Assembly (NCBI GenBank): GCA_963965975.1
Contig: OZ014422.1
Span: forward strand, 3,743,155 to 3,807,154
DNA from: Xestospongia bergquistia
Taxonomy: Eukaryota > Porifera > Demospongiae > Haplosclerida > Petrosiidae
Length of the DNA: 64,000 nt
Direction of reading: 5' to 3'
Shown here: one piece after another, positions 1-58,304 of the stretch
Position numbering within the stretch: position 1 is the first letter of the stretch
Layout: the number at the start of each line of letters is the position of its first letter
Position numbers and translations under genes: made by a program
The notes under the pieces: model-generated
The model's input: only the letters and a program-made list of their open reading frames with translations
Database searches by the model: none
What the model was told of the DNA's origin: nothing

Positions 1-2
1 GA

Positions 3-1463
3 CGACTTTTTGACTCACCTGAAAACATTCCAGAAAGCTCCCCAGCACCCTCCATCAGAAATGACCCAGTCAATCTTCCCTCCTCTGCTCCCTCCAACCC
101 AACCCTGAGGCAAAGAGAACTGGTTCAAACACCTCAAATCGAGGATACACATTTGGAAGGACTACCATTCAACCAATTGAACGGTCTCGTACCTCTCATA
201 ACTAACGAAACACACAGAGCACTAAATACAGAACAACGCTACAACGCTCTACTCAGACCTATAATACAGCCTAAAAGAACTTTCATGATGGTCCTGAAGG
301 CAAAAGACGATTTACCTTATCACAAACTGTACAACAAACTCAGAGACTTTGTTCATCAACACATGTATGAGGACCAGTTTCTATTGGTCAACTGTAAGCA
401 TTCCGGTAAGAACTCATGCATGAAAAGCACACACCATCACATAATAGAAGTGGCTCCCCTTCAGGAAGCTGACATTTACATTAAATGTTTGAAGAACTTC
501 TGTGAGGAGTTACACACTCCTTTCGGTGACAGAAATCTGGCCAACGACGGAAAAGGAGGATGTGGGAACTTTTGTCAATACGTTTCTCCAGACGGCACAA
601 TTAGACAATCTTCCATCGAAACAAATAGGACCGTTGTAGATCCTGACAGCGGTATACTGCTATACATCCGTGCCGGTTATGACTCTAGACAACACCATTG
701 CAAGTGGTACGCAACAATATATCCCAAAGAAAAGAACCAACTCAAAGCCATTTGGGACTGCCTACCTGGTGAAGATACACTCATGTCGGTACACAAGAAG
801 AAACATCCTTCCTGCTTCGAGGTAAGTTGTGTAACTAAAAATGTGGATGGGGTCATAGTAGATGAATTTGCTATGTTCCAATCCGATCTTGTCTGATTGA
901 CTAATTTTAACTTTTCTGCTTTCCAATACAGCAGACTCATACACTTCAAAGAACTAGATCTTCACACACTTTCTGCTAACTTTCACAGCACTCTAAAGAA
1001 ACTTTTCGAAGGGGATGAAGAACTCGTAGATGTTAAGTATTCCAGACCAGTTAAAATTTCGTCAGTGCCCATAATAATAACATCTAACTACAACCCTGAA
1101 GTCCTCTTGAGAAACTTTGTGACAACGATGAAGCATCATACAAAGCTTTCCTCAATAGAATATACATTTACAAGTCAGTCCAATTACTATTATTCTTTTT
1201 TTAGTATCATTATTAGGTTCAAAGTCACTTTCTCAAATCCCAACTTCTTCAAATCCATTCAAAAGTTATGATCGACTTCACAGAAAACTCTAGTAACTTT
1301 AACACTTACATACCTGTAGATAAAGTGAGGGACACAACCCAGTACATAGACGAGCGGAGGTCAGATGGCTTACAGGCCTGAAGACTACGTCAAACTCCTT
1401 AGATTAGACGTCCTTATCAAGTTGTTCGACTTAGAAGGAGATATCGACATATTTAACATATAG
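3..1463 (+). pseudogene. Viral replication protein (NS1/Rep-like) with SF3 helicase motif, broken
   Basis: The frame is open from the window edge, so the 5' end is missing. It runs to a TGA at 894-896 and then resumes in the same frame to 1271; short C-terminal pieces continue in other frames to 1463. The part after the stop contains SVPIIITSNYNP, which matches the sensor-1 (motif C) strand of superfamily 3 helicases of small DNA viruses. VIVDEFAMF just before the stop looks like a Walker B strand. No GxxxxGKT/S Walker A is visible, so the ATPase core is damaged or partly deleted. THHHIIEV (about 438-461) could be a HUH nuclease motif but is weak alone. A GTAAGT at 826 and CAATACAG at 927-934 look like splice sites, but removing that piece shifts the frame. 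The gene converges on the - strand structural genes, as in ambisense parvoviruses. The SF3 call is fairly sure; the virus family is inference. Confidence 0.55.
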
Positions 1464-1573
1464 GAACTTGACTCTAAGTTAGTCATTACTTTTATATGCT
1501 GTTTTAACTATGCACTTATTAATAATTTTTGTCATATCTCAATTTTTTCATAATAATAAAAAGTTATTAAAAA

Positions 1574-2782
1574 TTATTTGTACAATGAAGGTATTTGTGA
1601 TTCTGCCTTAACTAATAAGTCAGGATGTCTAACAGTTTGCATCTTCTGCAGTATGGCCTCACTCAATGCTACTGGATCTTTAGCAATTTTTGAATCTTCC
1701 ATGGCAAGTTGTTCAAAGAGCAATTGTTTCTTCTGCCTACTAGATCTTATGTAGTTCTTTTCTTCCACTTCCTTAGGATACCAAGCCAACTTGTGGCTAA
1801 AAGTACTTTGCCCTCAAGAAGCTTTGTTGTTGTAAGTGTTGCAAAGTTTGTTTCTTATCACGTTAGCTCTTTTCTTATAATAGGATATCTGTGCCAAAAT
1901 GTCGTCCTTGGAGATGTTCAAAATCAACACATCCCTCTTTTGGAAAGTCTCCAGAGTCTGCTTCATAGTTTCAAGGTAAGAGTGATCCAACCTCCTATAC
2001 TCGCTGGATTTCTTTGGATTCTCTTCCAATTTGGACAACAACCTATAACTGTCTCCAATCGTGGTAAGTACATCTACTAACCTAACCATTACAGGGGTTA
2101 GCATCTCCACTCCAATGTATATACCACCAAGTACTAAATTTCCGTTTATTGTAAGTACCAAGTCTTCTTCTTTGACACCTGGAACTCCCATCTCGTGCAA
2201 AGCTTCCATTTCTGTTTCAACTTGAGTGACTTTCCTTGCCAACTCTTCTTCACCTTTGCTTGTGTATCCTTCCAATACTTTGTCAAGTTCAGCCAAAAAA
2301 ATAGCAGTATGGTCTTTGGGATCTGCAGCAAGCATCTTTCCACCTGGGATTCTGACTGGCTCTGGCACTTCACCCTTGTGAGAAAGAGGTAGATTTTCTG
2401 GATGACTCAAAGCTTCAACCACAAGATGACTCAATATCTCAACATTTCTCGGATCAGTGCCCTCCTCAGGAACTGGATTCGAATAAACATAACATTCAGC
2501 TTCATTTGCAAAAGGTTGTATCACTAGAACAGGTTCTTGCTGCTGTTGCTCTTGTTGTTCTTGCTTTAATTGTGCCTGGAAAGGAATAGGAGGATTCTCC
2601 CTTTCCTGTCTCAAATCTACTACAAGAGTAGGAGGCAGTCTCTCTGTCACACCACCACTGACACGATACTGCAATGCAGCATCTGTGGCCTGCCTCTGAA
2701 GCTCTTCCAAAGTCTGAGGATAAGAATCTGCATGACCTTCAACTATGTTAGGCACTCTCTCCAAGAACTCTTCGGAAGACAT
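1574..2782 (-). pseudogene. Virus-like element gene, glutamine-rich/coiled-coil protein with in-frame stop
   Basis: The reading frame starts at MSSEEFLERVP (2782) and runs 322 codons to a TGA at 1814-1816. It then stays open in the same frame to 1574, which suggests one protein of about 400 residues with a late nonsense mutation. The visible parts are an acidic N-terminus, a Q/E run (EQQEQQQQEP) around residue 75, a hydrophobic beta-like stretch near NGNLVLGGIYIGVE, and a helical, charged C-terminus. I do not recognise the family. It lies in the same frame as the upstream block (3205-2792), separated by one stop and about 10 bases. The two may therefore be tandem cistrons or one larger gene with a second nonsense mutation. 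Its position at the distal end of the - strand cassette suggests a structural or accessory viral protein (inference). Confidence 0.4.
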
Positions 2783-2791
2783 ATCTTCTCT

Positions 2792-3328
2792 CTATATATT
2801 AGTTGGTCTCACATCAGTCACCGTGACGTGCCTCTCTTCAAACTGTGCCCTTAATTCCTGAAAAATGCGTGTTTCATTTTCACCAAAAGTGACCTTCTTG
2901 ACACCTTTGACTTTTTTCTTAATTTCTTTTTTGATCTTCACTTTCATCTTGCCTTCGCCCTTATTGAAAGGCTGAGTTTCGATGGCAACAATTTCTACAT
3001 CTTCATTATGATTAACAGGCAAAGAAGGATCAAAACAAACAATTTGAGAACCTCTGGAAGTCACTAGCAACACATTTTCAGTCTGAGGAGCTTGAGCTTG
3101 TTCTGCAACAGCAAACCAATCTTCCTCTTCTGGCTCTTGCACGTAAGGCGAAGGAGGTCCACTAGAAGGAACAGAAGAGACAGACAAAGGAGAACCTTCC
3201 ATCATACGTAATAAATTTGTAGGTCTATAGTAAGTTACTGTTACAGGTACTGGAGCTACTGGTACAGGAGTTACAGGTACTTTTATTGGAGTGACAAATG
3301 ATGTGTGTGTAGAAGTTGGAGGATTCTA
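2792..3328 (-). CDS. Virus-like element ORF, Pro/Val-rich then Lys-rich protein
   Basis: An ATG pair at 3205-3200 (MMEGSPLS) begins a 137-codon frame, but the frame is open upstream to about 3328. That extension is rich in alternating Pro, Val and Thr (VPVTPVPVAPVPVTVT). The remainder has an acidic segment (EPEEEDWF), then a strongly basic patch (MKVKIKKEIKKKVKGVKKV), and ends PTNI at a TAG. A possible short intron lies just upstream: GTGAGT at about 3372 and a pyrimidine tract ending TTTTTAG at about 3332, read on the - strand. If real, it would join this block to the protein at 3340-4177. The basic patch could bind nucleic acid. No family is recognised. Confidence 0.35.
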
Positions 3329-3339
3329 CTAAAAAGAAA

Positions 3340-4177
3340 AAGGTAATTAGAGCATGACATTAACTCACATATGCAGCTATTGACTGCGTTGTAGTCGCAG
3401 GTCTGGTAGATACTCCCAAACTAGGTCCAACACCAGAAGGTCTTACACCCGTAGGTGACACGTACGCAGGTCCTAATGTTTGTCTCATGAGTTCATTAAA
3501 TCCAGCAGTAGTAGGAGAATAAGCAATCCAACAGAAGATCCAGGACTACTTGGATAACCTCCCGTCGCAGCTATGCCCAAATCACCTAATTACCTGCCAA
3601 TACCTTCTAAATGATTAGCCAAGTACCTGTTCTGATATATCCAATCGTCAGCAGCCCTCAATGCTTCCAGCTTCCACAAACTCCTCAACCAAACGTGACG
3701 GTTGTTATTTTTGTAAGCCTGTACAATCTCCTCCACCATGTTATACATTTGCACAGTGTCAAAACCTTCAATGTATCCTGTAATCATGTGAAATGCATTA
3801 CCTTTAGTTCCTCTCAATCCCTGATAAAAATATCTGCCAGACGGATGTCGAACAACATTAGCGAAAGGATGATAGATAGACTTCCACGTCAAAGAAAAGT
3901 TTGTCTGATACAAGTCATGCTCCGGATCTACAGTTCTCACTCTCTGTCCAGGCTGCTTCTTAGGCGTTCCTATGGAATAGGAATAACCTATAATGCTTAT
4001 GTACTGTGGAAAATTCCACGTCTGAGTTATGTTGAGTATCAACTCATCGACTATGTAATTGCGAACTCTACCAGGATCCCCCCTAAATCTCTCATATACA
4101 GTATAGTTAGGATTTTTCTCTTGCCAAGCAGGCAACTGACCTCTAACCACAGTTCTCCAATTCCTGTAGTTAGCCAT
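3340..4177 (-). pseudogene. Virus-like element gene, aromatic-rich structural-type protein, damaged C-terminus
   Basis: ATG at 4177 (MANYRNWRTVVRG) opens a 195-codon frame ending at TAA 3590-3592. Downstream the same frame continues with Gly/Pro-rich sequence (ATGGYPSSPGSS). After one frame change it continues as another Pro/Gly/Thr-rich stretch to about 3372, where a GTGAGT donor-like site is seen. The folded part is rich in Trp, Tyr and Arg with beta-like stretches (QYISIIGYSYSIG) and looks like a virion or DNA-packaging protein more than an enzyme, but I cannot name a family. About 90 bases of AT-rich sequence separate it from the capsid-like gene upstream. The TAA at 3590 may be a mutation, or it may lie in an intron, since CAGGTAATT is donor-like. 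Confidence 0.4.
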
Positions 4178-4266
4178 TTTAATAATATACTTTAATTAAT
4201 AAACAAAATTAAGTGTACTATATGAAATACACTAATTTAAAAATTATAACTATTAATTAAACAGTT

Positions 4267-6269
4267 TATCTTGAAATAGAATAGTCACCTGTAGGATAAT
4301 ATTCTGGAGTCCAAGTCTTACCACCTATCTCTACTGATGAAAAAATTGAATTTGAGTAAGTGTATTGAGCATAATTTGTAGACGTAACAGTGTCGGTACT
4401 TGTAGTTCCTTCCCAAAAAAAGGACGAAATTCATCATCCTCAATGTATACATTGAAATCTGGTTTAGCATCCAACTTGTATGGAAGTTTAATCGTATTGT
4501 GACCCTGACCACCAACATTACTAGAACCAGTGTGATAACCGAAATATTTGAATACAACAAATTGACCTTCAGTACCTGTTCCCATATTAGCGTAGTAATA
4601 AACATATTTCTTACTTTCTTCATAATCAAGGTAATACATAGCAACAGCAAGCGAATCCTTTTAAACTAAGTAAGAGTCATCAATTTCACCATAAGTGACT
4701 TGCCATCGATTTGTTCCTGAAGCACCAAAAGGAGGTGCAACATAAAGATATATTTTCTGATCTGCGCTGTTAATACCAGCAAAACCCCAATCATGATTGT
4801 GATTCGTATGACAAATGTAAAACTGACTGTAAATATCATAATTGTGATGTGTACTCCACAAATCATGCAAAGGTATTTGATCAACTAAAACTCTCTGCTT
4901 TCCATTTTTGTATATAGAAACATCTTGCATTCGTACGTAATCTTTAAAATTGATTGTAAAATCTAAACAAGCACTGTCGAGAGACATACGAACTATCACT
5001 CTAATTTTAAAATCTTGATATAGACTTCCATTTTCGTTAACTTTTCTATATGCTTCTACTTTAAAGGTGACATTAGTAGACCATGTGAAATCTTGTATAT
5101 TTAAAGGTACCCTCTATACGATGTCTTCTTTCATGTATATATCTCCAACTTGTGTTGTCATGTTGTTCTGTAACTGCTTTAGTAATTTCTTTTGCGTTTC
5201 ATGAATGACACTCAAAGCATTATTGTTGTGCCAAATCCTACTAGTCAGTTCCTGAATACTTTTAGAATGTTCCCTATATTGGTATACATCCTTTTTAGCA
5301 TATACCCTTTGATTACTAGTATTAACCATTTCTGTTCCTCCAATAAATACAGTATTTTGCAAGAATTTTCTATTTCATTTGCATTAGCACTAGCAAAACC
5401 ACTATTAAAAACAATAAATGAAGTACTTGAAGGGGCACCATGATCGCTACAAAAACTAACAGTTGTTGCGTCACTCTCTGTTGTTACAGTATTTGTTATA
5501 GATAAGCCTAGTATAGATTTGGTAGCCATTGGCATTATTCCAAAACCTAAATAAGAATCGTTACCAGTAGAAGTCCTGTCATTCCCACATAAGCTTCAAC
5601 ACCATATATAGGTTGTGGCTGATTGCTCATGGGATCTATAATCTCCATAACAGTTGCAGAAGGAGTGACAGGAGATTCCATTGCAAATCCGTTAATTTCA
5701 ACTGTGGATCCGCCAGGTGCCACGTTTACTTTAGGTCTTGAACCCATCATAGGTAAGTTCATCATAGTCAAATAGTTGTCATTGTCATGACCACCTAAAT
5801 CTGTGTTTACTGGCTCAAATTTTCCACTTTTAAATTGGAAAGGATAAACAAGACCATTATACTTCTTATGTAAAGACTTGTAGTAATCTGCTTTACTCTT
5901 AACAAACATATCTGGTGGAGTAGGATCAGCCAATGCGTTATGCTTTAAAAAATGACCTAGTTCGTTTTCAGACATGTCACTTGAAGGTCTCAATGCGTAC
6001 ATATCATCAGTTACTTTGTGGACCCCCGGTGCCACATCCTCAGGTTCAAACTCTTCCGTCTGTACATTTTGAATGATCTCTTGATGTCCTGCGGGCTGAG
6101 ATACAGTACTCAGGACGGCATCTCTTCTGACTGGACTGCAACTTCTGGCAAGAGCACTTCGGCGTCCTTTGCTAGGCTGAGCACGAGGTCTTGCATTTCT
6201 TTTATTTTTGACTGCACTTTTGGTTTTGATCACACAGTGACTGTTTTTGTGAGAGCTTCTAGAGTACAA
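4267..6269 (-). pseudogene. Putative capsid-like protein of the virus-like element, broken by frameshifts and stops
   Basis: Consecutive open blocks (6269-5547, 5535-5245, 5362-5114, 4999-4661, 4639-4331, about 4330-4267) read in order with slips near 5545, 5360 and 4335. In-frame stops lie at 5114-5116 and 4661-4663. The blocks on either side of each stop share one frame, so this looks like a single gene of about 650-670 codons, close to the size of densovirus VP proteins. The N-terminus is very basic (KNKRNARPRAQPSKGRRSA), fitting a nuclear-localisation or DNA-binding arm. The middle has Gly/Asn-rich turns, and the C-terminal half is beta-rich with many Tyr, Trp and His. No phospholipase A2 loop or HD motif was found. 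The capsid role is inferred from size, basic arm, composition and position opposite the replication gene. Confidence 0.4.
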
Positions 6270-6398
6270 ACCACATTGATATCATACGTTGAGGGTCATT
6301 GTTAAAAATTGACTCCATAGCTTTGACGTCCCCCCATTCTATTGCCCCATCTAGGAACTGTTATTGGACTTTGGTATTGAGGTAGGTAAGGACGTACT

Positions 6399-6696
6399 CC
6401 CTCCCTGAGACTTCTTGCCCTGTCAGGACTGAAAGACATGATGGATGCTGTTGTGATGATGGACAAAAGGATAGATCACCTACAGGAAGGAATAGAGCTA
6501 CTGCAGAAAGAGTTTCGAAGAAGTCCAAGACAATTCTCGAAGCCAAGGGATGAAGTTTCAAATCCACGACAAGAGTATAGAATTGTTGGACGAACAACAT
6601 TTGGAAGTGATGAAAGATCTGGAGAAGTACACTACAATGGCAAAAGAGCAACAGAAGTGCATGATGAACCCCCTCCCTGAGACGTCTTGCCCTGTC
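6399..6696 (+). repeat. Coiled-coil gene fragment flanked by 26-bp direct repeats
   Basis: The 26-bp stretches at 6399-6424 and 6671-6696 differ at one base (core CCCTCCCTGAGAC). Between them, about 246 bases closely match 9281-9520 in the same orientation, including the peptide IDHLQEGIELLQKEF. The copy is an internal slice of the coiled-coil gene at 9122-9720, with frame damage. It lies upstream of the capsid-like gene, inside the virus-like element. The flanking repeats look like a long target-site duplication or a recombination scar. Confidence 0.6.
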
Positions 6697-6943
6697 TGAG
6701 ATTACCATACATTTTTGTGTAGTTCTCTCTTTTGTACTACCTTTCCTTTCTATTCTTTCCTGTGACAATGACATAAACCTCTCCATTTATAACTTCCTCT
6801 CTAGCACGTTTCCCAATGGTTAACTCATAATAAAAATGGTGGATATATAATTACATACTACTTATATACCAAAGTATTAATACAAATAAAATACAAAAAT
6901 AAACTAAGTAAATTTCCGTTTCCTAGAAAGTTACATAATATAC

Positions 6944-7215
6944 TTATTGAATAACACAAGCTGGAACAAACTTTTCAGCTTTATCAAAGACTTCCATGGC
7001 AGTTAACTTGCAGACTCCATGAAACGAACCATTCCTTGATTTCCACACATCCAAAAGTAACACAAAAGATTTCACCTTATATATCTTGAGCCATACATAC
7101 CATGAAGATATCTACGTACTTGATGATCATCAGAAATACATGCAAAAACTACCATATCGTTATAATCAAAAAGGTTCTTATCCATAAATCGTGAAATTGA
7201 TTTACTTGCAGACAT
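6944..7215 (-). pseudogene. Small ORF at the right end of the virus-like element, one frameshift
   Basis: ATG at 7215 (MSASKSISRFMDKN) follows the stop of the upstream small ORF by two bases. The frame runs about 48 codons to a TGA. A one-base slip near the motif SRYI lets it continue another 45 or so codons to TAA 6944-6946. The predicted product is about 90 residues, mixed hydrophobic and charged, with no transmembrane helix and no recognised domain. The tight spacing to the upstream ORF suggests they share one transcript from the promoter at about 7540. Function unknown. Confidence 0.35.
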
Positions 7216-7488
7216 TCACATGATACCTTCTTCACTGTTAGTTATATGTTCCAAATATTTGCATGCATGTTTACACCACCATTCATCAGCAGTACACCAC
7301 CAATCGTACCACGTAGCTATCTTTCGAGGACAAGAAAGTATATCAATCATACATGCTTCAGCTTCCTTAACCTCTGGAGGTAACACATAGTCATCAGGTC
7401 TTGGATAAAAGTTTTCCTCAAACCTTGATCGTTTTCTCTTTGGCTTATCTGGAGGTGGTGATGGTTGACCAGGATGATTATGAGCCAT
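7216..7488 (-). CDS. Small ORF (90 aa), Pro/Arg-rich N-terminus and Trp/Cys-rich C-terminus, virus-like element
   Basis: ATG at 7488 is the first start after a TATA-like box about 50 bases upstream. The first 30 residues are Pro-rich and then basic (PPDKPKRKRSRFEE), which could be a nuclear localisation signal. The second half carries several Trp and Cys residues (ATWYDWWCTADEWWCKHACK), which could form a small metal-binding or disulfide module. The stop codon is almost contiguous with the next ATG at 7215. I do not know the family. It is the most promoter-proximal gene of the - strand cassette. Confidence 0.45.
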   Translation of the reverse strand: MAHNHPGQPSPPPDKPKRKRSRFEENFYPRPDDYVLPPEVKEAEACMIDILSCPRKIATWYDWWCTADEWWCKHACKYLEHITNSEEGIM

Positions 7489-7550
7489 AATATAGTCTCC
7501 ACTGCAAGCACAGTTACCTTGTAAATAACAATTCCTTTTATAGTAAACTG
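7488..7550 (-). promoter_or_regulatory. TATA-like promoter for the - strand structural cassette
   Basis: On the - strand TACTATAAAAGG lies about 45-55 bases upstream of the ATG at 7488. No other start intervenes. It is a reasonable promoter for the rightmost gene of the element; there is no direct transcript evidence. Confidence 0.35.
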
Positions 7551-7821
7551 AGGAAGCTATGTATGTAATTCCTCTTTACATCTCTGAAAACAAGTGAATT
7601 ATGTAGAATATACTTTTTATTATAATATTATACTTTAAAGTACATCTATGTATTTACCTTTATTTTATACCCAAATACTATTGCATGCATGGTTGGGTGT
7701 AAGTATTAGGGTAATAATATATTAGGTAATAGTATATTAGTTCAATTCTTATTTAATTACTGTATTTATAAAGTATAATTATCTTAATTTACTTAATTTC
7801 TTAGTCTTACATAGTTAACTT

Positions 7822-8090
7822 ATATATATTTATTAATCCCATTTAACTTTCTGAAATTAAGTGAATTAATTGCACTAGTGATGCAGGCTTCAGTCCCACA
7901 CAATAGACCCACTTTATAATGCACAATTATCCTTTAGTCACTTTAGCTAAACAGTACCTCCTGGAAGCCCACTTAATTTCAGAAAGTTAAAGGAGATTAA
8001 TAAATATTCATAAGTTATACTTCAAAACAAATAACAAAAGTGTATTAAGTATACTAAGATCTAGTTCATATCACTTCCAGGAAAAGTATA
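7822..8090. repeat. Palindromic hairpin (terminal-repeat-like) of the virus-like element, copy 1
   Basis: Left arm sequence TAACTTTCTGAAATTAAGTG (7844-7863) is mirrored by CACTTAATTTCAGAAAGTTA (7970-7989). The match extends outward through TATTTATTAATCCC and its complement. The loop 7864-7969 is 106 nt. The right arm continues through CACTTCCAGG at about 8081; the left arm is truncated at about 7822. The palindrome at 58412-58743 has the same arms and a loop that matches this one in reverse complement. Such structures are typical of parvovirus-type telomeres; that this is one is inference. Confidence 0.7.
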
Positions 8091-8102
8091 TTATACTTAT
8101 TA

Positions 8103-8943
8103 CACTAGAAACAAACGAAGGTACAAAAACTGTTTTTCATTTGAATCCATCAGTACCAGAAACCATCTCTCCTCATCCAACTTCACAACCTGCGATTTTG
8201 CAAAGTACATTGCAAAAGAAGGCTTTGGGTCAATCTATTTCTTTTGGAAAGAGGAGTCTGACTACGGAAGAGGAGAGTCATTACTCAAAGTCCTTGCAGA
8301 ATCCTCTGAAAAAACGCAAATGAAAGGAAGGTACTTCCACAACTCATCCACTTCTTCAAAGTCAGAGGAGGTCATATAGTCGGACGACAAATCAATACAA
8401 GAAAAGTCGTCTGCTGCCATATCTACAAGAGACGTTCTAGTAAGTCGATTTTACCAAAAACTGAGAACTTTAGATATATTAGATTGTTTAGCCATTATCA
8501 ATAATGAGATTAAAGATGCCAATCATAGTATAACAAGAAGACTTGAAAAAACTAGATCAGAAGAGCAACTTAATCAATGGGAACAATTCCTTAATAATCC
8601 CATAAGACCTAATGTTACAAGATTTATGGTTAACCGTTGTGCATACTGTAGGATGACAATATATAGTATTGCTCTTCAGACTGTCTGCATGTTGAGTAAT
8701 TGTAGATTGAAGTATTATAATTTTAGTGAACGTGACATTGCTATGAGAGATTGAAAGTTTGAGAGGTGCATTAACTGTCTTGAATTTGTACCCTTTGATC
8801 ATTCAAAACCATGCCCACAATGTGTTAAGTCAGAACAAGCTTTAAGAGAGTTTGATATAGACTATTATGTAGGGGAAGAGGAGGAAGCACAAGACAAAGA
8901 AATGACCTGTATGGACATCTTGTCCTTGCCTGAATTGTCATAA
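8103..8943 (+). pseudogene. Zinc-finger-like accessory protein of virus-like element, 5'-truncated copy
   Basis: The coding similarity starts abruptly after the hairpin (8103) and misses the first ~115 codons seen in the copy at 57833-58281. It carries the shared block containing FHLNPSVPETISPHPTSQP, a stop at 8321-8323, then a second frame from about 8335. That frame has a TAG at 8377-8379, a TGA near 8752 and ends at TAA 8941-8943. The C-terminal half has Cys pairs (CAYC, CINC, CPQC with a nearby His) spaced as in zinc-binding modules, then an acidic tail (GEEEEAQDKE). The middle segment is helical (TLDILDCLAIINNEIKDANH). Densoviruses encode a Cys-rich NS3 next to the terminal repeat; the position fits, but homology is unproven. 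Confidence 0.5.
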
Positions 8944-9121
8944 ACATTTTGTTACTTACATTAGTGACTTTTGTTTATGACGTGATTCTAATCATTTCCT
9001 TTTTTTCAATAGATTGAAAAATTAATTTTGATTTATTTGTATTCAAATATAGTTTTCTTTAAATCTACTGACTAAAGACCTTCAAACGCACTAATTGACT
9101 TTTGTGCAATGGAAAGTAAAC

Positions 9122-9720
9122 ATGGAGAACATGATTTTCGGTCTCCAAGCTGCCAAAAAACTAATGCATGTAGGGCCTGCTCGGGAGACAACAGTATCTA
9201 AGGGGGATTTTTGTGTGAAAATTGGCTTAGTCACAGTATGTTTCTCGGAAGTGTACAAAATGGCAAAGGACAACAAGGAAGGACTGAAAGACATGACGGA
9301 TGCTGGTGTGACGATGGACGAAAGGATAGATCACCTACAGGAAGGAATAGAGCTACTGCAGAAAGAGTTTGAAGAAGTCCAAGACAATTCTCAAAGCCAA
9401 GGGATGAAGTTTGAAATCCACGACAAGAGGATAGAATTGTTGGACGAACAACATTTGGAAGTGAGGAAAGATCTGGACAATTACAAAACGATGGTGAAAG
9501 GCAACAGAAGTGCATGATGGAGACTCTTATGAAGTACAAGGAAGAGTGGACACACCGTCCGAATGTGTCTGTCACTCTGAAAGATGAACTGAAAAGCATC
9601 AACCAAAGTCATAAGGGAATGCAAAAGTCTCTGCAAGTGAGAGGACAATATCTCGGAGGAATACAGGATGCAATTGGACTCCTATTTCGAAGCCTCAACC
9701 AAGTAGGAGGAATAGTATAA
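9122..9720 (+). pseudogene. Coiled-coil protein gene, one frameshift
   Basis: ATG at 9122 (MENMIFGLQAAKKL) opens a frame to TGA 9515-9517. A second frame overlaps it from 9514 and runs to 9720. Comparison with the copy at 6425-6670 shows that one base is missing near 9500, so the two frames were once one protein of about 200 residues. Most of the sequence is heptad-like and highly charged (IDHLQEGIELLQKEFEEVQ, IELLDEQHLEVRKDLD), indicating a long coiled coil. The N-terminal 50 residues may be a small globular cap. There is no membrane segment. The family is not recognised. It follows the second virus-like fragment, and could be viral or host. Confidence 0.45.
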
Positions 9721-9844
9721 TTAATTTAAATAAAGCCATTTTAAATGTTTTACATAGCACTTACTTTTTAGAAATGTACTGAAAACATGTATTCATTAGC
9801 TATAATTTACTTAAAGTCTTGTCCAGTATAATTTAACACTGTAG

Positions 9845-9847
<3 letters not shown>

Positions 9848-9877
<30 letters not shown>
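9848..9877. repeat. (TA)n microsatellite
   Basis: About 15 uninterrupted TA units directly after the coiled-coil gene region. Confidence 0.9.
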
Positions 9878-9878
<1 letters not shown>

Positions 9879-10885
9879 CAAGCTTCACAGAACATCAAAT
9901 TGCCAACATTTTATAAATAATTCTTACTGAAAATACATGCATTATTAGACCACAGACAAATGAATCACCAAAGAAATGAGACCATATTAGATATTTCTAT
10001 CATTACTGTAACCATCCTGATCTCATGCAAGTATTCAAATTAATTTTGGCTCTCTGACTTAAAATGGGCAACTAGTAAATAAAATAATTAATTTGGTTTA
10101 CATATATTATGAGCCCAAAACATGTTCTGCATTGTATATTGACTAGCTGATGTTAAAATTGGTGATATTTCTATTGAATTTTTGGACCTCTGGTTGACTA
10201 ATACTTTCTTTACTTTTCTTTCTTTTGTTAGAATTCCAATTACATACCTGTAATTTGCATGTATTAGAAGCCCAGCATTGTAAGGATTGTTCATGTACAT
10301 ACACATACATGCATGTTTTGCATTCATATATTGAAAGTAGCTGGCACAAGGTGCTTGTTATTTTTCAGGCTGGTGAGTTTTTGTGTCTTGTCACTCTTAT
10401 CATTGTGACTCTCTTAAACTATACTGATCATCAAGTTATCAGTGGCAAAGGGTCATTAATGACTGCACTGTCTGTAATATTTAAAATTTGTCATAAACCT
10501 GATGTATGCTATTAATAAGACAATCTCCATAACTAATACAGATGTATTTTCACCTTAAGGGAATGAACATCTGAACACAAGACTATCGTAACCTAACCCC
10601 ACCCTTTTTCTGCAAAGACATCCAAGTAACCTTAACTTAAGACACTTCCTTATAAATTATAGTGTCTGTTTTAGAAACTTTAAAATAGGATGCATTGATA
10701 TTTCCTTTATGTATATTCAACAAGATACCTTGTGGGAGTTACTTCCAACAGTCAAGTGCTTGATCAATATTATCTAGGGAAATCAGAGGTAGAGCAATGG
10801 ATTATGTCATAGTCAAACTATAAAATAGATTGTTAGTCACTAGCAATCAGATTATCTGAAAGATGCTAAGAGAGAGAAAAAAAGT

Positions 10886-10916
<31 letters not shown>

Positions 10917-12900
10917 GTATTATATCCTTTTCCTACAATATGGCATATAAATGTTACTTTGTTTTTAATTTTAAGAGCTTCTTCTATAGTACATTCACTG
11001 AGCATATTAAGAGCTTCTTCATATCAGTATTGTTGAATATTGTGAGTAATAACATGATCATAGTCTATATGATAAAAGAGAAAAAATGTAATGAGAGTAT
11101 TGCTTAAATAACAGGTATTAACAGACAGACTATTAATATAAGGTACCTTTCATAAGTTTGGCAAATACAATGATATCATTAGTAGCTCTGTGACTAAAGA
11201 TCGGATTATATCTTGTCTTACTATTCTCTTGTCTTACTATTAATATGACATTATAATTACACTATATATTATACATGTGTAATAACATTATATACTATAC
11301 ATGGACATATATAGTGATTACCTTATTGTAAGTACTACTTTGACATATAGAGAACCTAAGCACTCATGAAATTCCTTTTGTAGTTTCAAAAGGCTGTCAT
11401 CTTTTCCTAATCATAAATATTTCCTAGTTCATTAAGATAGAGTTCAGTTAACTAGGTTGATAACATTGTCCATTGAGTTTTGTCTAGATCTGTTAAAGAA
11501 TCAAGTTTGTGATGAGAAATAGATTCAAAGCATCTTGTTTGTTGACCTTATTCATACCACTTGTATCAAGTAATGTCGTGTCCTCTTTAATTAATTATTA
11601 TTTTCACTGTCAATACTAACTGTTTTGTTTACTTGTCTGATCACTTAACATTATCAGTTATTAATTTGTCCACCTAACTGTCAGTCTATCTATCCATTCG
11701 TTATTATTTCAATAAGGATATGGTATTAGTTTTTTCTCAACAAAGACACTCTCTCTGCATTCCTGATCACCAAACACCATTGCACTTTAATATATACTAG
11801 CTCCAGTTAATCAAGCAAAGGGGCTTGAGGATCTTTACAATATGGTGGCCACACACATAACTTTCTCTCTTATAAAATACCAGGAATCTCTTGAAATTGA
11901 ATTAAAGAGAGAGGAGAGATAAAAAATGTTTTTAAGATCTTAATCTCCACTGCTTCATATACATAATATCTTACTTATACGTGTATATTTACATATCCAG
12001 TATCTTACTTTTAACAGTGTCATTATAGAAACTAAATAGTTCCATGAAGTGAGGTTCTAAATGAGGTCGTATTGGACCAATAAACTGATACACTCTACCA
12101 TGTGTAGTGGCCAGTATATACCACTTTCCTTTATTACCTCCACTGAATTGAGGAAATGCTTAAATAATAAGACTTATATGAACCAATGTAAAAGTGGTCA
12201 ATCAGCATTTCTGCATTTCAGACTTCTTCTTAATTTGGAATTATCATAGGAATTCTGATAATATTCACAAAAGGAAGGTGAAGGGATTCAGAAAATTACT
12301 TGCTGATCTTAATAAAGATTACTTTCTGGGAAGAGTAGTCCTTTTGCTACAGTTGCTCTTTGTTCTATGGCCTATATCAATATTCTGTCAAGTATTTTTT
12401 GAATTCCATATTTAAGATATTATTTGCATTCCACGTCTCTCTAGATATGTAGACAGGATATAGTGGATAATCACCTTTTATGGAGTATTTGGTATTATTT
12501 TATATTTTAGCATACCCTGTTGATGGCAGAGAAAGGATATTTGATGTCCTGTCTCACCCTAGGAAACATTAACAGTCTGGCTAGATATTGGTCATGACTT
12601 ATTAGGAAAAAGAGGAGCAATACAAGTGAAGCAATGTATCAGGTGCAAGACATGAGCACCAATATATAAATGATACTAAAGTACAAATTAACATTTGAAA
12701 CATTAATACAATAATTATAAGAATACGTTAGATTTGACAAGAATAAAATTTAAACCTATAGATTACATACCTCAACTCCTATCTCCTTAAGAAACAAGTA
12801 AAGCTCGGGCATTTAAGTAAGTACATCTCAAAAGGGTGTTAGCATTACCGTTAATACTCACCAGATGATGAACAACTGGAACTGGTACTGTTGGAGTTTA
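9878..12900. other. AT-rich stretch without a supportable gene
   Basis: Only short open frames without recognisable domains were found on either strand. A (GA)n run lies at about 10870-10913. The rest is AT-rich sequence with scattered ATATAT runs. Confidence 0.5.
10870..10913. repeat. (GA)n microsatellite
   Basis: Purine-only run dominated by GA dinucleotides. Confidence 0.85.
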
Positions 12901-13806: not shown

Positions 13807-14275
13807 ATGGTGCCACACTGGATTTCAGCTTATACTATTTTTCTATTTCCATGTGCCTTTATTGAAAGTTTTATCTCCTTATCATCCTCCTCCACATCAA
13901 TTTTATCATCACCCATTACCTCAACCATCACAAATATCTTCTATCCCTACCCCTTTACATCCAACTCTACTGTTCCCTATAATACAGCACCCTTGTATTC
14001 AGAAGTCTTTAAACCAACCACAGTCACAGCCAGTACTACCACCACTCATACCTCCCATCCCACCCTCCCTACTTCCAACTCCACTGTTCCCTATCGAACA
14101 ACATCCTTGTACTCCAATGTCTACAGTATTACATCAACCATCACAAGTGCGTCCAACCCCTCTACTACCAACTCCCGTGGTACATCACATTTATGCACAG
14201 AGGATCTCAGCTCAAGCTAAGAAGTGTCCTCAATCTACTGTGGCAGACTCCCCACCCATCCAAAGAATCGATTAA
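13807..14275 (+). CDS. Proline/serine-rich ORF upstream of LINE endonuclease
   Basis: Two overlapping frames stay open for about 140 codons each because the DNA is built from CCC/TCC/ACC-rich repeats. One reads Pro/Gln-rich (PPLIPPIPPSLLPTPLF), the other Ser/Thr-rich. The block leads directly into the LINE endonuclease frame and may be the end of an ORF1 or a linker of ORF2. No zinc knuckle or RRM is visible. The coding status is uncertain because compositional bias alone could keep both frames open. Confidence 0.3.
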
Positions 14276-17010
14276 TAGGCCAGGTGTCTGATATGCACAC
14301 TTTATTTGTTGACAAGGGCCCTGGTTGTGGTGTTAATGTAAAAAATGTAAATAATGTAAAGGCAAATAACTCATGTGTTAAGTCTTTTTGTGTTACCTGT
14401 GCATGTTGTAATGTTGGTGGTTGGTATCATAGAAATAGTGACTTAAGAGAAGCTGTAATTCACACTCTTACTAGAGATATTGTTGGAATTGTTGAGTCTC
14501 ACCTAAGATTCAATGATAAAATTGATATTCCCTATTACACCTGGTTTGGTAATAACTGGATTATAGAAAATAACAGAGCGAAAGAAGGATTTGGTGGTGT
14601 TGGCTTTTTAGTATCTAATCATCTTTTTAACAACTTTAGTGTATCAAGATAAAGTAAAAGACTGTCTATGGTTACAACTAACACACCTAACATCTAAAGA
14701 TATAGCCCTGTTCTGTGTATGCTATCTTCCCCCTACTACTAATTCTAGAGGTGACCACTCTTTTGAATTCTTCAATATACTGAAGCAGCAAATACTACAA
14801 TACCAGTCCTTAGGCCATGTTGTTATTTGTGGTGATTTCAATGCTCGTTGTGGGCATACTATTAATATTCCAGAGGCTAACCCATTGTCTTTACCAGTAA
14901 GAAGTATATGTGACCTAAATACCAACTCAGAAGGATTGTCTTTTATAAATTTCCTAGAAGAAACTGATTTTTGCATTCTTAATGGGTAATTTGGTCCTAT
15001 TTCTAATAAGTACACCTCTGTCTCATACAGAGGATCAGCAGTAGTAGACTATTGTATTATATCTACCTCAAACTTTCACCTAATTGCATCTTTTCAAATA
15101 GAACTAATACATGACTTCATGGACAAATTTAACATTCACATAGATAGCATTGTCCCAGATCATTCTATATTACTTTGGGAATTTAAATTTAATAACCCTA
15201 TCCATAATACCACACATGCACTCCCTTCCTCTGTAGTTAGACTACCTAAACAGGTTATCCCACAGACTTATTTAGAAGATGAGGAGGCCTTACGCCATAT
15301 TGATGATTTGTGTTCATTAATTTCTAGTAGTAAAGGAGTGGACAGTGTTTATGCTATTTGTTCTTTTATTTCTAACTCATTATATTTAGATAGTTTTCCC
15401 AATCATAAAAGTAAAAAGGAAATTCAAAAAAATTTCACAAACCATGGTGGGATGGCGATCTTCATGTTATGAAGAAAGAAGTTAGACTTGCCCTTAAAGC
15501 ATGGTTAAAAAAGAAATCAGTAGTAAGCATTAAGCAATCTTATTTGACTCTCCAACAAAACTTTGACAAACTAGTTAGACGTAAAAAAAGACTGTTTCTT
15601 TCAACCCAAAGACAAGAACTATTAGACTTACAAAAGCACAATCCTAGATCATTTTTGAAGAATGTGAAAAAGCTATCTATCAGTTATTTAAAAAAGAAAT
15701 CAAACTTTCCCTGGGAAGTCATTATACAGGGTAAAATTTGTACCAACAAGGATACAATACTACAAGTTTGGAAAGACACTTACTACAAACTATATAATAG
15801 CTCCATTGTACAAGACAGATATATAGATTATTACTTTACATAGATAAATATTAAAAGTAAATGCCTTGATACATCTATACTCAATGATGACCTTTTGTTT
15901 GATGAAATCCATATGGCAATTTCTCTTGCACCTACTAAGAAACCTTGTGGATCTGATAACATATATGCAGATTACTTTAAACATCCTAATCTTATTCCTC
16001 TTATTACCCAGCTTTTCAGAACATGTTTCCTAACTAGTTGTTTCCCTAATTTATGGCATAAAGCAAATATCTTACCAGTCCCAAAATCAGGCAATCTTAC
16101 AGACCCTTTAAATTATAGGGGAATTGCCCTCCAATATAATTTACTTAAAGCATATACAAGTATATTAAATAAAGGATTTACTTACTGGCTAGAAGACAAT
16201 GAAATACTTGTACAAGAACAACTAGGATTTAGAAGTGGTCATAACTGTCTTAAGCATGCTCTCACTGTTTACTTAATGGCCCGAAATAGAAAAATAATCA
16301 ATAAAGATACATTTATATGTTTTATTGATTTAAAGAAGGCACACTATAGCCAATGAAGATTGGCAGTCTCAACTAAATAAACCTTTAGATCCTTCATCTA
16401 AGACAGGAGGTAAGTTAGTAATATATAGACAACTACAACAGGAGCCATTGCTACGTAGTTATGTGCTTGCCAACATGATCGCAAAGAGACGCGGGACTAT
16501 GGCAGCCATATGTGGAGGTTGTCTGCCCCTACCAGTTGAGAGGGGGTGTTTTCATGTACCTAAGATACCTCTAAAGGATAGACTATGTATTCTTTGCAAC
16601 ACCAATTCAATGGAATATGTACCTCATTTTGTCCTGTTCTGTCCAAAGTACAATAACATACGACTCAAACTTTACAACACAATCACTTCCAAAGTACCAT
16701 CCTTTTACTCTCTTCCCCACACAGACAAACTCACAATCATTTTATCAAATGAATTCAGCCATATATCATTGTTGTATTTTAATGAAATGTTCATTTTAAG
16801 ATCAAATTTAGTTTTGTAATTATTAATTTTGTTTTCCTTTATGTTTTGTATAGTCACTGTAAGTTTATTATTTAATCCAAAATTTCTTTATATCATATCA
16901 CTTTTATTTTGTAACTAACTTGTGACTCATAAGCCATTGGTGGCTGGGCAGTCTTCTGTGTGCGACATTAATAATAATAATAATAATAATAAATAATAAA
17001 TAAATTATAA
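14224..17010 (+). mobile_element. APE-type non-LTR retrotransposon (LINE), copy 1, degenerate
   Basis: Blocks in order: an AP-endonuclease domain (DIVGIVESHLR at about 14480, then VVICGDFNARCGH at about 14820, then DYCIISTSN at about 15050 and PDHSILLWEF at about 15160), a connecting region (15240-15840), and the start of reverse transcriptase (PCGSDNIYADYF, LNYRGIALQYN, EQLGFRSGHNCLKH, FICFIDLKKA). The palm with the YADD motif is missing: the text jumps at about 16350 to the C-terminal zinc-knuckle region (CILCNTNSMEYVPHFVLFCPKY). Frameshifts or stops occur near 14650, 14989, 15470 and 15841. The 3' end is a (TAA)n tail at 16966-17000. A second copy on the - strand retains the palm. The clade is not certain (CR1/L2/Jockey-like range). 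Confidence 0.85.
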
Positions 17011-21321: not shown

Positions 21322-23546
21322 TAGGCCTGGGCGAAAGTATTGGTATTGTCACTATCGCGATTATGATAACGATTAATCTTACTTTCATGATTATAACACG
21401 TGGTTTGCGCATGCGCAAATGTATTAAGTGCTTGCTGCTGTAACGTGGCTTTGAGTTGTTTGTACATGTACAGTGACTAACTGTCATAACCTTGTGATTA
21501 CAAGATGGCAACAGCAGCCACTCAAGAGCTACTCTTCCTTGAATGTTCAACTAGTGCTGTATGGAAACACTTTGGTTTCCCATCAAAGGATGGAAAAATT
21601 ATAATTGAGAAGAAAAAAAGAGATAGAGTTTATTGTAAACTGTGCAACAAGGTTATGAAGTACAGTGGTAGTACTACAAATATGAGATTTGATTTAAAAG
21701 AACATCACAGATCTGTTTTTAATTCCTTGCTGAACTCTGACAGCAGCTCACAAACTAGATCAGTTCAATTAGACAAACATCAGTCCACACTACCACAGGT
21801 CATTTCTGCCTCTCAACCAATTCAACCGTCTTCAGCAAGATGGAATAAGCTGACTGATGGAGGTCATGTACTTTATTATAAAGTATATTCAACCTTTGGA
21901 TACTATAGATGACAAAGGCTTTCGTCACATGATTCATACATTTGAACCTAGATACACTCCGCCTTCCAGAAAGACAATCTCAACTAAGCAGCTTCTTCAA
22001 GTCTATGAGTCAGAAGTGGCTCGAGTTAAATCGATCACTCAAACTGCTAACTCGTCTGCTTTGACAACCGATATATGGACGTCAAGAGCAAATCATGCCT
22101 ATACTGGGGTCACTGTGCATTTCCTCTCGAAGTCTTTTGAGCTCCATCACTATCTGCTTGAAACAAGAAAGTTTCCTACTACTCATTCAGGTGCCAATAT
22201 AGCAGATGAAGTGGAATGTGTCTTAAAAGAATGGGATATTAAGATGAACACGGCAAAAGAAATTACAACAGATAATGGAGCCAACATCACCTCAGCAGTT
22301 CAAATGTTGGGCTGATCCATGTCCCATGCTTTTCCCACACATTCAGCTTGCTGTAGAGAAAGTCTTGAAATTACCTGCAGTAGTTAAAGCAGTAGCACAA
22401 TGCAGACATATTGTCACACATTTTCATCACTCAAGTAAATCATCTTACCAATTAAAGGAGAAGCAAATTAGTTAGGTCACAGACAACACTACTTAATTCA
22501 AGATGTAGCAACCCGATGGAATTTGGCCTATTACATGATAAATTCTATCATGGAACAGCAGCAGCCAATTTGTGCCACTTTTTTAGCGATTCACAAAGGA
22601 GAGTTAATGCCATCAGACTTTGAATTTGCCACTTTAGAAGCAATTGTTTCTGTAATGAAACTAGCAGTAGAAATAACAGAAGCTATTGGAGGAGAAAAAT
22701 GGATTACCATTTCCACAATCAGACCGAATTTGCACAAATTGCTTCAATCCAGTCTACTTCTGTCTTATGATGACACTGCTCAGATTAAGACCTTCAAGAA
22801 GGTCTTACTGACAGACTTGCAGGAATGGTACATAGGTGAAACTTAAATACTTCTATTCCTTACCAAAGGTAAATTTCTTGATCCCCGTTTTAAACGATTG
22901 AAATTCTCCTTTCTCATGAGGATCATGATGAAGTGATTTCAAGTATCAAAAATGATGTAGCTTTGGTTGATGATTATGTAAATCTTAAAGAGAAAATATC
23001 TGAGCAACCTCCACCAAAATGATCTAAAGGGGAAAGAAAATTAATGCATATTTTAGAAGGCATAGGTGAAACAAATGACGAATAAGACTTACCACAAAAG
23101 AAAGAGAGATTGAATGTTGAAATATCACAATACAAAGGCGAACAACCAAAATCTCAATTGCCAATTGAACGGTGGAGGAAAAATGAAACTTGATATCCAC
23201 TCCTTTCTCAGCTCGCAAGAAGATATCTTGCTATACCTGCTACATCAGTGCCTTGTGAACGGCTGTTTAGCACTGCTGGTCATATTGCCTCAGAAAAAAG
23301 GTAGTGTTTGTTATCAGACAATGTGAACAGATTAGTATTTTTAGCTGAAAACATGCCATGACTTGTTATTTTTTATATTATACATGTATATCTGCTTCAC
23401 GTACACTTTTTTCATCATGTTAACTTGATAGTAAAATAACGTATAGAAACATGAAAATGTTAACCAACTATCGCGAAGTTGCACTATCATGAAAGTCAGA
23501 ATGGAAAATATTGTGAATGTGATTTTTTCACTTTTTCCCAGGCTTA
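21322..23546 (+). mobile_element. hAT transposon with 8-bp target duplication and terminal inverted repeats
   Basis: The 5' end TAGGCCTGGGCGAAAGT (21322-21338) is mirrored by ACTTTTTCCCAGGCTTA (23530-23546), 14 of 17 matching. The flanks CAAAGCTG (21314-21321) and CAAAGATG (23547-23554) are an 8-bp target duplication with one change, diagnostic of hAT. It inserted into intron 1 of the ankyrin-Roc gene. A perfect GCGCATGCGC palindrome at about 21408 (NRF1-type site) precedes the transposase. Confidence 0.85.
21505..23340 (+). pseudogene. hAT (ZBED-like) transposase, frameshifted
   Basis: ATG at 21505 opens with a BED zinc finger (VWKHFGFPSKDG, then VYCKLCNKVMKYSGSTTNM and a final EHH). The next frame (from about 21890) has the RNase H-like core start LTTDIWTSRAN, which carries the first catalytic Asp, and ITTDNGANITSAV, the region of the second Asp. 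Later blocks include DVATRWNLAYYM (22503) and GGEKWITISTIRPNLHKLL. The C-terminal dimerisation segment [14 protein letters not shown] (about 23250) is present. Frame changes near 21880, 22310, 22475, 22845 and stops at about 23020 make it non-functional. It encodes the cut-and-paste enzyme for the element that encloses it. Confidence 0.85.
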
Positions 23547-40615: not shown

Positions 40616-42664
40616 TACCATGTCCGAGTTGAGAAGAGCCCTTCATTAAAAAAAAGGTGTTTTATGCATGGAATGTAAGGTGAGGAATTTCCTTCCCTAT
40701 TAAACACACTTAGCGCTGAAGCACATTTTAATTATATTCATTATTTGTTCACGTGAATGTCATGCGAACACACCACGTTTTCTCTCGTGTTTGTGAAGAT
40801 GCCAACTGGAAAGAGATTGAGAGCGCAAACAAAGGAGGTTGTTGTGAATGTCTATGACTACTTTGAGGAACTTGGCAGGCGTAAACGGACTGAAGGATCT
40901 CTAAAACGAACCTGTGATGCTACAAAAATTTCACGTACCAGCATCAAGAGGTTACGGAAGGAGAAACTTAGGACAGGGGGAGCTGCCTTTTCAACTCCAA
41001 CAAAGAGGTACAGATTCTCCAGACGCCTGTTAGTTGATGATTTTGATCGTGAAGCCATCAGACGAAAAATATACCACCTCTATCGGTGCAAAGAGCATGT
41101 GACACTATCCAAGTTGTTGGTTGTGTTGAAAGAGGATAACCTCTTTCACGGTCAGAGGACGACCCTCAACATCTTGCTAAGGGAAATGGGTTTCAAGTGA
41201 GTTAGCATAACTTTTGTTATGATGCCCATTAATATTGTACTTTATAGACATAAGAGAGTGGATGACAGACGCCACTACTATGAACACCACGCATTATGGA
41301 ACAGAGGCACTATTACCTTCGTCGAATGATGACGAACCGCCAAGAGAATAGGCCAGTTGTTTACCTCGATGAAACCTGGGCCAATGCTCATGATGGCAGG
41401 GATTGTGCTTGGGTAGAGAGGGATGATGTGACTGGTGGAACCCTTGGTGGTATAAAAAGGCCTCCTGGAAAGGGTGCACGGCTTATTATTCTTGGAGCTG
41501 GTGGTGAGAATGGTTGGATTCCCAATACCACTCTCATATTCAGATCCAAAAAAAATACTGGTGATTACCATGATGAGATGACTGCTGATCATTTTGAGGA
41601 GTGGTTTGGTACCAAACTTCTCCCAAATGTTCCACCTAACAGTCTAATTGTCATGGATAATGCCTCATATCATAGCCGTCGTAGTGACCCTGTTCCAGTC
41701 AAAAGTTGGACAAAGCAAAAGATGCAAGATTGGCTTCAGGCAAAGGGAGTTGAATTCCCAACAAATGCCTTGAAAGCTGAATTGTATAGCATCATACAAA
41801 GAATGAAACCTACCCCTCGCTATGTTGTTGATGACATGGCTGCTGCTGCAGGTAAGAACTTAGTCAAGATAGCCTTTGTATTTATTGATATGTACATCAT
41901 ACAGGGCATGAGGTGGTCCGACTCCCTGTTGCTCACTGCACTCTCAATCCTATTGAGTTGGCATGGGCACAGGTTAAAGGTCACATCAAGGCCAACACTC
42001 GTGCATTTAACCTCCGTGAGGTTGAGCAGCTGGCATGGGAGGGTTTCGATGTTGTGACACCTGACCGTTGGAAGAGCCTCATTCAACATGTCAAGATCCA
42101 CTTTGAAGACCACTATTGGTCTAATGATGGCCTCTATGAAGAGTTAGTGGATGAGTTCATCATTCGAGTTGGAGGTGAATCGGATGAGTCTGATGATTCC
42201 GATCAGTCTGATAGTTCCGATGACGATTAGTTGTAGGCATTCTCAGTCTTCCTTCTTTGCTGAAAGGTTTTTTTCAAAACCATGGTGGCTTTATAGCTGC
42301 CTCAAATCACAAAAGATGATACCTGGTTATTATTTTAATAATAATTGTTATAATATACCATTTGTTCATACAATTAGAATTGTAATTTTGAATTGCCACG
42401 TGACAGATGGCTGACTTCTCAAAGCGAAAATTGTTTTTTATTAAACCCTCGAAGGTGTGCAATTTGAAGTATGTGAAAGGTATGCCATTGAAAATGTATG
42501 GAGTTTTCCAGTTTGGTACTTTCTCGTAGTGCTAGAGAGCCAAATTTTATATATAAAATGCGCATTTGCAAGATAAATCGATTGTGCAAGTTTCATGTCA
42601 ATAGCACGTAAAACGGCAAAGTTATTCACATGTCTGGGTGGGCCCTCTCAACTCGGACATGGTA
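40616..42664 (+). mobile_element. IS630/Tc1-like transposon with TA duplication
   Basis: Terminal inverted repeats TACCATGTCCGAGTTGAGA are identical for at least 19 bases at both ends (40616 and 42664) and nearly so for the next seven. Each end is flanked by TA (40614-40615, 42665-42666), the target duplication of the Tc1/mariner/IS630 superfamily. The element is 2049 bp and contains a near-complete transposase, so it is probably recent. Confidence 0.9.
40757..42230 (+). CDS. IS630-like DDE transposase, three exons, one suspected frameshift
   Basis: Exon 1 (40757-41196) encodes a basic helix-turn-helix DNA-binding region; an alternative in-frame ATG at 40799 (MPTGKRLRAQ) is also possible. 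Introns of 51 and 53 bp have good sites (41197 GTGAGT to 41247 TATAG; 41852 GTAAG to 41904 ACAG). The catalytic triad is visible: Asp in VVYLDETWANAHD (about 41365), Asp in SLIVMDNASYHS (about 41655), Glu in TLNPIELAWAQVKGH (about 41960). The C-terminus is an acidic Ser/Asp tail. Exon 2 enters in one frame, while the catalytic core is in another from about 41290, so one indel is suspected there. Otherwise the enzyme is intact, about 440-450 residues. It cuts and pastes the enclosing element at TA sites. Confidence 0.85.
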
Positions 42665-58281: not shown

Positions 58282-58304
58282 TTTGACTCTCCAACTAGAA
58301 GTGA

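Follow-up and report, generated by a model that had tools for sequence, protein, structure and literature searches.

A decayed, virus-like ambisense element with palindromic ends in the genome of the sponge Xestospongia bergquistia

We analyzed a 64,000-nucleotide stretch of the Xestospongia bergquistia genome (hereafter the window; C12:3743155-3807154 within a 146-Mb genome), the left part of which holds a genuine virus-like element, now decayed, whose lineage appears to be undescribed, with a replication gene (Rep) on the + strand converging on five late genes on the − strand. The host is an animal, as judged by its Wnt genes, which are an animal marker and were found in 0 of 14 control genomes. 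The whole insert extends from C12:3738532 to about C12:3752864 (window ~9710), a length of 14.3 kb, of which the left ~4.6 kb lies outside the window in the adjoining stretch L009; an earlier reading made from the letters of the window (the sequence-only reading) had bounded the element at 1 to 8943, but the window cuts it and host DNA resumes only at ~9711. The insert consists of one unit of ~12 kb followed, in the same orientation, by 1.6 kb of another (a head-to-tail arrangement). From left to right, the unit has an imperfect 951-bp palindrome that forms its end (L009:376-1326) and, on the + strand, an open reading frame (ORF) with a putative zinc finger, coiled-coil-like ORFs, and Rep; the − strand, facing Rep, carries c322, p137, p195, VP, and p190, followed by a second palindrome and then the partial second unit. 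Three lineages of this element (C12 type, C1, and C9) are present in the one genome, with proteins 23 to 73% identical, and all five late genes have a relative in another lineage.

The N-terminal and middle part of Rep occupies positions 1 to 896 (+) as an open frame that begins at C12:3742977 (297 amino acids within the window, 357 including the left part; database copy P0001), and it has matches in C1, in C9, and in seven further copies of the window type. It contains the stretch THHHIIEV, which is like that of an HUH nickase; THHHI or IHHHI is found in this part of Rep in C12, C1, and C9 and resembles the HUH motif, and no Pfam model matched the part at E ≤ 1 or supported the motif. The C-terminal part is a set of superfamily 3 (SF3) helicase pieces with Walker B and sensor motifs (897 to 1378, +, including a piece at 1217 to 1378), in frames other than that of the N-terminal part. 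The sensor-bearing frame at 897 to 1271, which the sequence-only reading had described as converging on a − strand cassette, was borne out by Parvo_NS1 (22.3 bits, E = 7.4e-5; Pfam cut-off, 20 bits), with PPV_E1_C at 16.5 bits (E = 0.005). In the longer helicase pieces, papillomavirus E1 outscores parvovirus NS1: the C9 piece, which includes the P-loop GPSNTGKS, reaches 59.2 bits for PPV_E1_C (E = 4.7e-16) and 35.2 bits for Parvo_NS1, and database protein P0003 reaches 42.4 and 21.5 bits, respectively. The C1 piece (PPV_E1_C, 15.1 bits; Parvo_NS1, 13.3 bits) and the L011 piece (16.3 and 17.5 bits) both fall below the NS1 cut-off. The P-loop stretch is absent from six of the window-type copies read (window, L011, L013, L014, L017, and L019) and kept in C13. 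Between lineages, helicase pieces are 49 to 73% identical (matches at E ≤ 1e-10). Searches of Rep pieces against PDB sequences reached E = 0.056 to 0.06 for parvovirus NS1/adeno-associated virus Rep and papillomavirus E1, which is not credible, and a PDB sequence search with helicase alignment A6 gave no match, nor did one with a further alignment, A5. A separate Rep-like frame was also seen at L081 (C1:16417300-16418900; 2 to 1156, +), with THFHAYI, GPSGSGKST, and a Pfam RNA_helicase match (E = 2.6e-9); it is 33% identical to the C9 helicase and likely represents another endogenous virus, one resembling CRESS (circular Rep-encoding single-stranded) DNA viruses.

The late genes share the − strand. 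Nearest to Rep, with its 3′ end facing the Rep 3′ end, is c322 (1577 to 2782, two pieces), a 322-amino-acid ORF that is acidic and has 19 glutamines, and stretches of C1 and C9 are 30 to 40% identical to it; in two copies, 110 to 132 bp separate the early and late 3′ ends. This gene is followed by p137 (2792 to 3205), a 137-amino-acid ORF with 41% identity to a C9 stretch and no C1 relative among the matches listed; these two ORFs confirm the further − strand proteins predicted from the window alone. So does p195 (3590 to 4177) for the expected aromatic-rich second protein, with phenylalanine, tryptophan, and tyrosine making up 30 of its 195 residues; it is 48 to 55% identical between lineages, with C1 at 51% and C9 at 48 to 54% among the 11 matches listed. 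The best match of p195 alignment A4 to PDB sequences was a ribosomal protein at E = 0.3, which is not credible. The gene farthest from Rep, p190 (7075 to 7575), is in two pieces in the window and forms one 177- to 196-codon frame in C7 and C1 copies; what had been taken for two tiny promoter-proximal ORFs are pieces of this one gene. It is 38 to 57% identical between lineages, with no C9 relative among the matches listed.

Between p195 and p190 lies the capsid candidate VP (4334 to 6281, −). A capsid-like gene of ~660 codons with a basic arm had been proposed here: the basic N-terminus stands, with 15 lysine plus arginine and 1 aspartate plus glutamate in the first 60 residues in C12 (C1 likewise has 15 lysine plus arginine), but the gene lies in five open pieces and is incomplete relative to C1, whose VP region measures ~1,190 codons by coordinates, in several pieces; C12 copies are without a block of ~500 codons. 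A glycine-containing hydrophobic stretch near the VP middle is common to C1 and C9 and falls in the block absent from the C12 copies. Between lineages, the N-terminal part of VP is 41 to 53% identical (72% in a single short stretch) and the C-terminal part 27 to 43%. We predict that this large − strand gene encodes a capsid protein from its size, basic arm, strand, and position. No − strand ORF scanned exceeded the cut-off of any Pfam family, host and transposon families having been the other source considered for these proteins; one VP piece matched PolB at E = 0.054 (12.8 bits; cut-off, 25.8).

The early ORFs are named by appearance: "zinc finger" refers to paired cysteines read by eye, to which Pfam gave no support, and "coiled coil" refers to composition together with weak Pfam matches (HAUS1, E = 4.9e-5, 23.7 bits; cut-off, 40). 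Relatives of the zinc-finger ORF in C1 and C9 are 23 to 29% identical between lineages. Both kinds of ORF recur, decayed, in the start of the second, truncated unit (8106 to 9710, +; zinc-finger ORF, 8105 to 8898; coiled-coil-like ORF, 9053 to 9699), which repeats the left end in direct orientation. The repeat, from 8106 to ~9710-9716, is 94% identical to L009:1606-3175, with a start-to-start distance of 11,500 bases; since the C13 copy has a further ~600 bases between palindrome and repeat that are not in the window copy, we place the unit at ~12 kb from palindrome to palindrome. We had also considered 8106 to 9710 as a host repeat and dropped this reading because C1 and C9 have the same ORFs beside Rep.

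Genome sequence searches give lower bounds for copy number (at least a second C1 unit was missed in the VP search). Eight window-type copies with coding sequence were found, on C12 (3.74, 3.905, 3.955, and 4.08 Mb), C7 (4.46, 5.46, and 5.52 Mb), and C13 (2.85 Mb), and three more places on C12 (3.37, 3.64, and 3.80 Mb) match by end sequence only. Within the window, positions 57528 to 59300 (C12:3800682-3802454) hold a rearranged left-end-only remnant of repeat pieces and palindrome, 91 to 97% identical to L009; almost identical sequence also lies at C12:3370 and C12:3640 kb. At C1:17216829-17238824, a 14,010-bp unit (17216829 versus 17230839) is joined head to tail to a second one and an inverted piece is also present, while C9:5461-5470 kb holds one decayed unit. 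Head-to-tail units thus occur at C12, C13, and C1. Gene order is common to C12 and C1, and C9 has VP, p195, p137, c322, Rep, coiled coil, and zinc finger. The left edge of the C1 insert repeats at C1:17201668, 17209257, and 17216846; the exact 7,589-base spacing and the 307 identical bases at the copy read (L076) point to a recent tandem duplication. With a unit of ~12 to 14 kb, the proposal of an endogenous ambisense virus-like element far above densovirus size, and apparently of a separate lineage, is supported.

The divergence among lineages speaks for past constraint on the genes. In 10 between-lineage comparisons (helicase, p195, and VP), the proportion of synonymous differences (pS) was 0.71 to 0.84, near saturation, and the proportion of nonsynonymous differences (pN) was 0.18 to 0.48, two further comparisons of that set falling within the window's group; in 35 comparisons inside the window's duplicated group, the nonsynonymous-to-synonymous ratio (dN/dS) was 0.37 to 1.39 and several copies had stop codons, all of these values being simple counts without a tree. 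Because synonymous sites are near saturated between lineages and amino acid sites are not, we conclude that the genes were once maintained, with constraint acting before integration and mostly drift since.

The unit ends at C12 and C1 are marked by palindromic DNA predicted to fold far more stably than expected. As single-stranded DNA, the C12 left palindrome (z = −63; 0 of 20 shuffles as stable), the C1 palindrome (z = −47; 0 of 100), and the window palindrome at 7813 to 8088 (z = −8.5; 0 of 200) all exceed their shuffled controls. The last of these is the late-end hairpin and the junction to the second unit; the sequence-only reading had correctly seen it, but had taken it for the end of an element that continues to ~9710. 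The palindrome was found at at least 11 places, 10 of them beside other sequence of the element, and not in the thousands that would mark an unrelated miniature inverted-repeat transposable element without the ORFs. The C12 and C1 palindromes have in common the 14-mer AAGTGAACTAACTG; direct BLAST of one against the other gave no match. An extended terminal 20-mer, at ≤1 mismatch, has 31 sites in 146 Mb (22 exact) versus 4 for the reversed control, and 27 of the 31 are in palindromes or ends of the element, with 2 in the upstream repeats of the C1 left edge and 2 on C2 and C4. A palindrome-only locus, L075 (C7:4344700-4347300), accounts for two of those 27 sites and has nested inverted repeats (346-nucleotide arms, 95% complementary); its palindrome resembles both C12 and C1 ends in short stretches (49 bases at 84 to 86%, ~83 bases at 76%) and may mark the terminus of a fourth lineage.

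What the insert replaced can be read from a host locus free of virus (C12:3206700-3209400), which aligns through the integration site with a diverged paralogue (C1:26664700-26666950). Host sequence matches on the left as far as L009:377 and resumes on the right at about window 9711; ~2.2 kb of host DNA between these flanks has been replaced by the insert. The C12 insert begins ≤2 bases from the palindrome edge, and the C1 insert begins ≤3 bases from a tip-like centre of its palindrome, which has three such centres in tandem. Insertion edges at the palindrome together with the loss of ~2.2 kb of host DNA fit the end-joining of a linear DNA with hairpin ends to broken host sequence. The right host flank of the window copy (9711 to 12500), which is common to other copies and to the virus-free locus at C12:3209192, is shared with copies at C7:5.46, C13, and C12:3.955 Mb, and the left flank is shared with C7:4.46 and C12:3.955 Mb. 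Shared flanks in at least five of the eight coding copies, including that in the window (flanks were placed for five copies), indicate that these stem from one integration that was spread by host duplication. Between VP and p190 in the late region sits a 242-bp duplicate of early (coiled-coil) sequence (6425 to 6666, +); two copies on C12 and two on C7 have this insertion and C13 does not, so the C13 copy was probably the first to branch off. Farther along the window are frames that by eye resemble non-long-terminal-repeat retrotransposon reverse transcriptase (13807 to 16356 and 51366 to 52091) and hAT, Tc1/mariner-type, and piggyBac transposases (21505 to 22315, 40757 to 42057, and 42962 to 44466).

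Taken together, we interpret the insert as what is left, after integration and decay, of an animal virus with ~12 to 14 kb of DNA. Its genome was probably an ambisense replicon, linear and hairpin-ended, that would have been copied in a parvovirus-like manner and end-joined to host DNA, a reading to which we give a probability of roughly 0.6; a larger form of the parvovirus-like hairpin replicon is the best description of it. In such a virus, Rep would nick or resolve the hairpin, possibly near AAGTGAACTAACTG, and its helicase would unwind the genome for host polymerases, which we infer because no viral polymerase was recognized. The late strand would make the particle, with VP as the main capsid protein, and head-to-tail units could arise from a circle or from recombination between ends. 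Following a single integration, duplication carried the host locus to several places, and the copies have since decayed. The broader proposal, that an E1-like helicase, parvovirus-like telomeres, and a five-gene virion module define a new family of animal DNA viruses with linear, hairpin-ended, ambisense genomes of 12 to 14 kb, several lineages of which infected the ancestors of one host, is tentative and in our judgment falls a little short of even odds.

Several observations weigh against the linear-virus interpretation. The VP pieces had no Pfam match over the cut-off and no parvovirus capsid or phospholipase match, and their best PDB sequence matches (nitrile lyase, phage sheath, and coat protein; E = 0.43 to 0.45) are not credible. 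Structure prediction failed for p195 (four sequences, alignment A4; predicted local distance difference test [pLDDT] score, 38), and the VP model (15 sequences; pLDDT, 36), which had no fold match in the viral library at E ≤ 0.001, was not used. The HUH-like stretch reads HHH where the HUH rule is His-hydrophobic-His, no catalytic tyrosine was assigned to this candidate motif, and NS1 ranks above E1 in two P-loop-less helicase pieces (window, 22.3 versus 16.5 bits; L011, 17.5 versus 16.3 bits). The 14-mer common to the C12 and C1 palindromes has only modest significance (19 of 2,000 one-arm shuffles share a word that long), and no palindrome was found at C9 in the stretch read. Two insertion edges in all were read, and that at C1 is the third tip-like centre and not the overall palindrome axis. 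In five IMG/VR scans no relative was confirmed, and Pfam profiles and structure prediction gave no capsid identity. Protein database searches matched 3 of 2,314, 6 of 4,129, and 5 of 6,617 candidates, amounting to 11 different proteins; 10 of these come from contigs of ≥159 kb, which probably belong to assemblies of this host or of one close to it, and P0011 is on an 8,060-bp contig.

The strongest competing explanation, which we nonetheless regard as unlikely, is a midsize circular virus of the adomavirus or large circular parvovirus sort, whose palindrome would be an internal origin and whose head-to-tail units would come from rolling-circle replication or from integrated circles. The single palindrome at each head-to-tail junction also fits a circular genome with a palindromic origin, and the E1-like helicase, the 12- to 14-kb unit, and the coiled-coil-like and zinc-finger ORFs are also as such a virus would have them. 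However, both readable edges are at the palindrome, which would be rare if a circle opened randomly, and no adenovirus-type protease, hexon, penton, or packaging ATPase was among the Pfam matches. Adomaviruses, as broadly defined by Buck et al. 2024 (PMC11071296), are predicted circular contigs of 9 to 20 kb with an SF3 helicase, of which E1-like is one class, Penton and Cah genes, alpha-helical or coiled-coil proteins, and, in one member, a zinc-finger gene. The element shares the size, the helicase, the coiled-coil-like ORFs, and the zinc finger, whereas many adomaviruses in that account have adenovirus-like virion genes and the element has large hairpins and no adenovirus-like protein that we recognized (there was no penton match, and the VP and p195 models failed). 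The same paper describes parvoviruses of >5 kb bearing Cah, most of them probably circular; they resemble the element by description only, in their parvovirus-type helicase, coiled-coil proteins, and above-usual size.

Less probable still is a true member of the Parvoviridae, in the form of an ambisense densovirus that grew by capturing genes. Several features of the element would be expected of such a virus: early and late cassettes that converge, hairpins at the ends, a Parvo_NS1 match over the cut-off, and the ranking of NS1 above E1 in the two P-loop-less pieces. Ambisense densoviruses such as Acheta domesticus mini ambidensovirus (PMC3820778) are indeed alike in that the 3′ ends of their two cassettes almost touch, their palindromic termini measure several hundred bases, and their Rep has an SF3 helicase. 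They measure ~5 to 6 kb, though (PMC3820778), and the element, at 12 to 14 kb, has zinc-finger and coiled-coil-like early ORFs and five late genes; its size excludes an ordinary densovirus. The longer helicase pieces rank E1 above NS1, and the lack of a parvovirus capsid or phospholipase match also counts against an enlarged one.

Comparison with two further families likewise returns partial resemblance to the linear hairpin-ended replicon that we favor. Bidnaviridae (PMC4061559) have a parvovirus-like helicase and ~12 kb in total, but they encode PolB, are divided into two segments, and have terminal repeats that do not form hairpins, whereas the element is one unit with hairpins and no PolB over the cut-off in the ORFs scanned. 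In Papillomaviridae, the likeness lies in the helicase, the E1 C-terminal domain being the best Pfam match of the C9 and P0003 pieces; no L1 or L2 match was found in the element. To our knowledge, the two-strand layout and the hairpins are foreign to papillomaviruses. As reported in PMC10433990, papillomavirus, adomavirus, and polyomavirus helicases fall on a branch apart from those of the other viruses compared. Finally, a nonviral, host-borne mobile element multiplying by its Rep helicase and hairpin ends, which eight coding copies of one type might suggest, is very improbable given that at least five of those eight share host flank and so were spread by host duplication and not by transposition, that 2.2 kb of target was lost, that no transposase or integrase match was found in the ORFs scanned, and that the late genes were once constrained.

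In a literature search on parvovirus-type sequences from sponges and demosponges, outside which lay subscription papers and most preprints, the element was unreported among the matches listed; parvovirus-like sequences have been reported from starfish and a sea anemone (PMC6085071). Gene constraint, mode of integration, and subsequent duplication can all be tested directly with the divergent lineages and the virus-free locus. The helicase is common to papillomaviruses, parvoviruses, and adomaviruses, whose genome forms differ. If our interpretation is true, a genome with hairpin ends, an E1-like helicase, and twice the size of a densovirus, fossilized as three lineages in one animal genome, would look like an intermediate among them and would broaden the range of sizes known for hairpin replicons.

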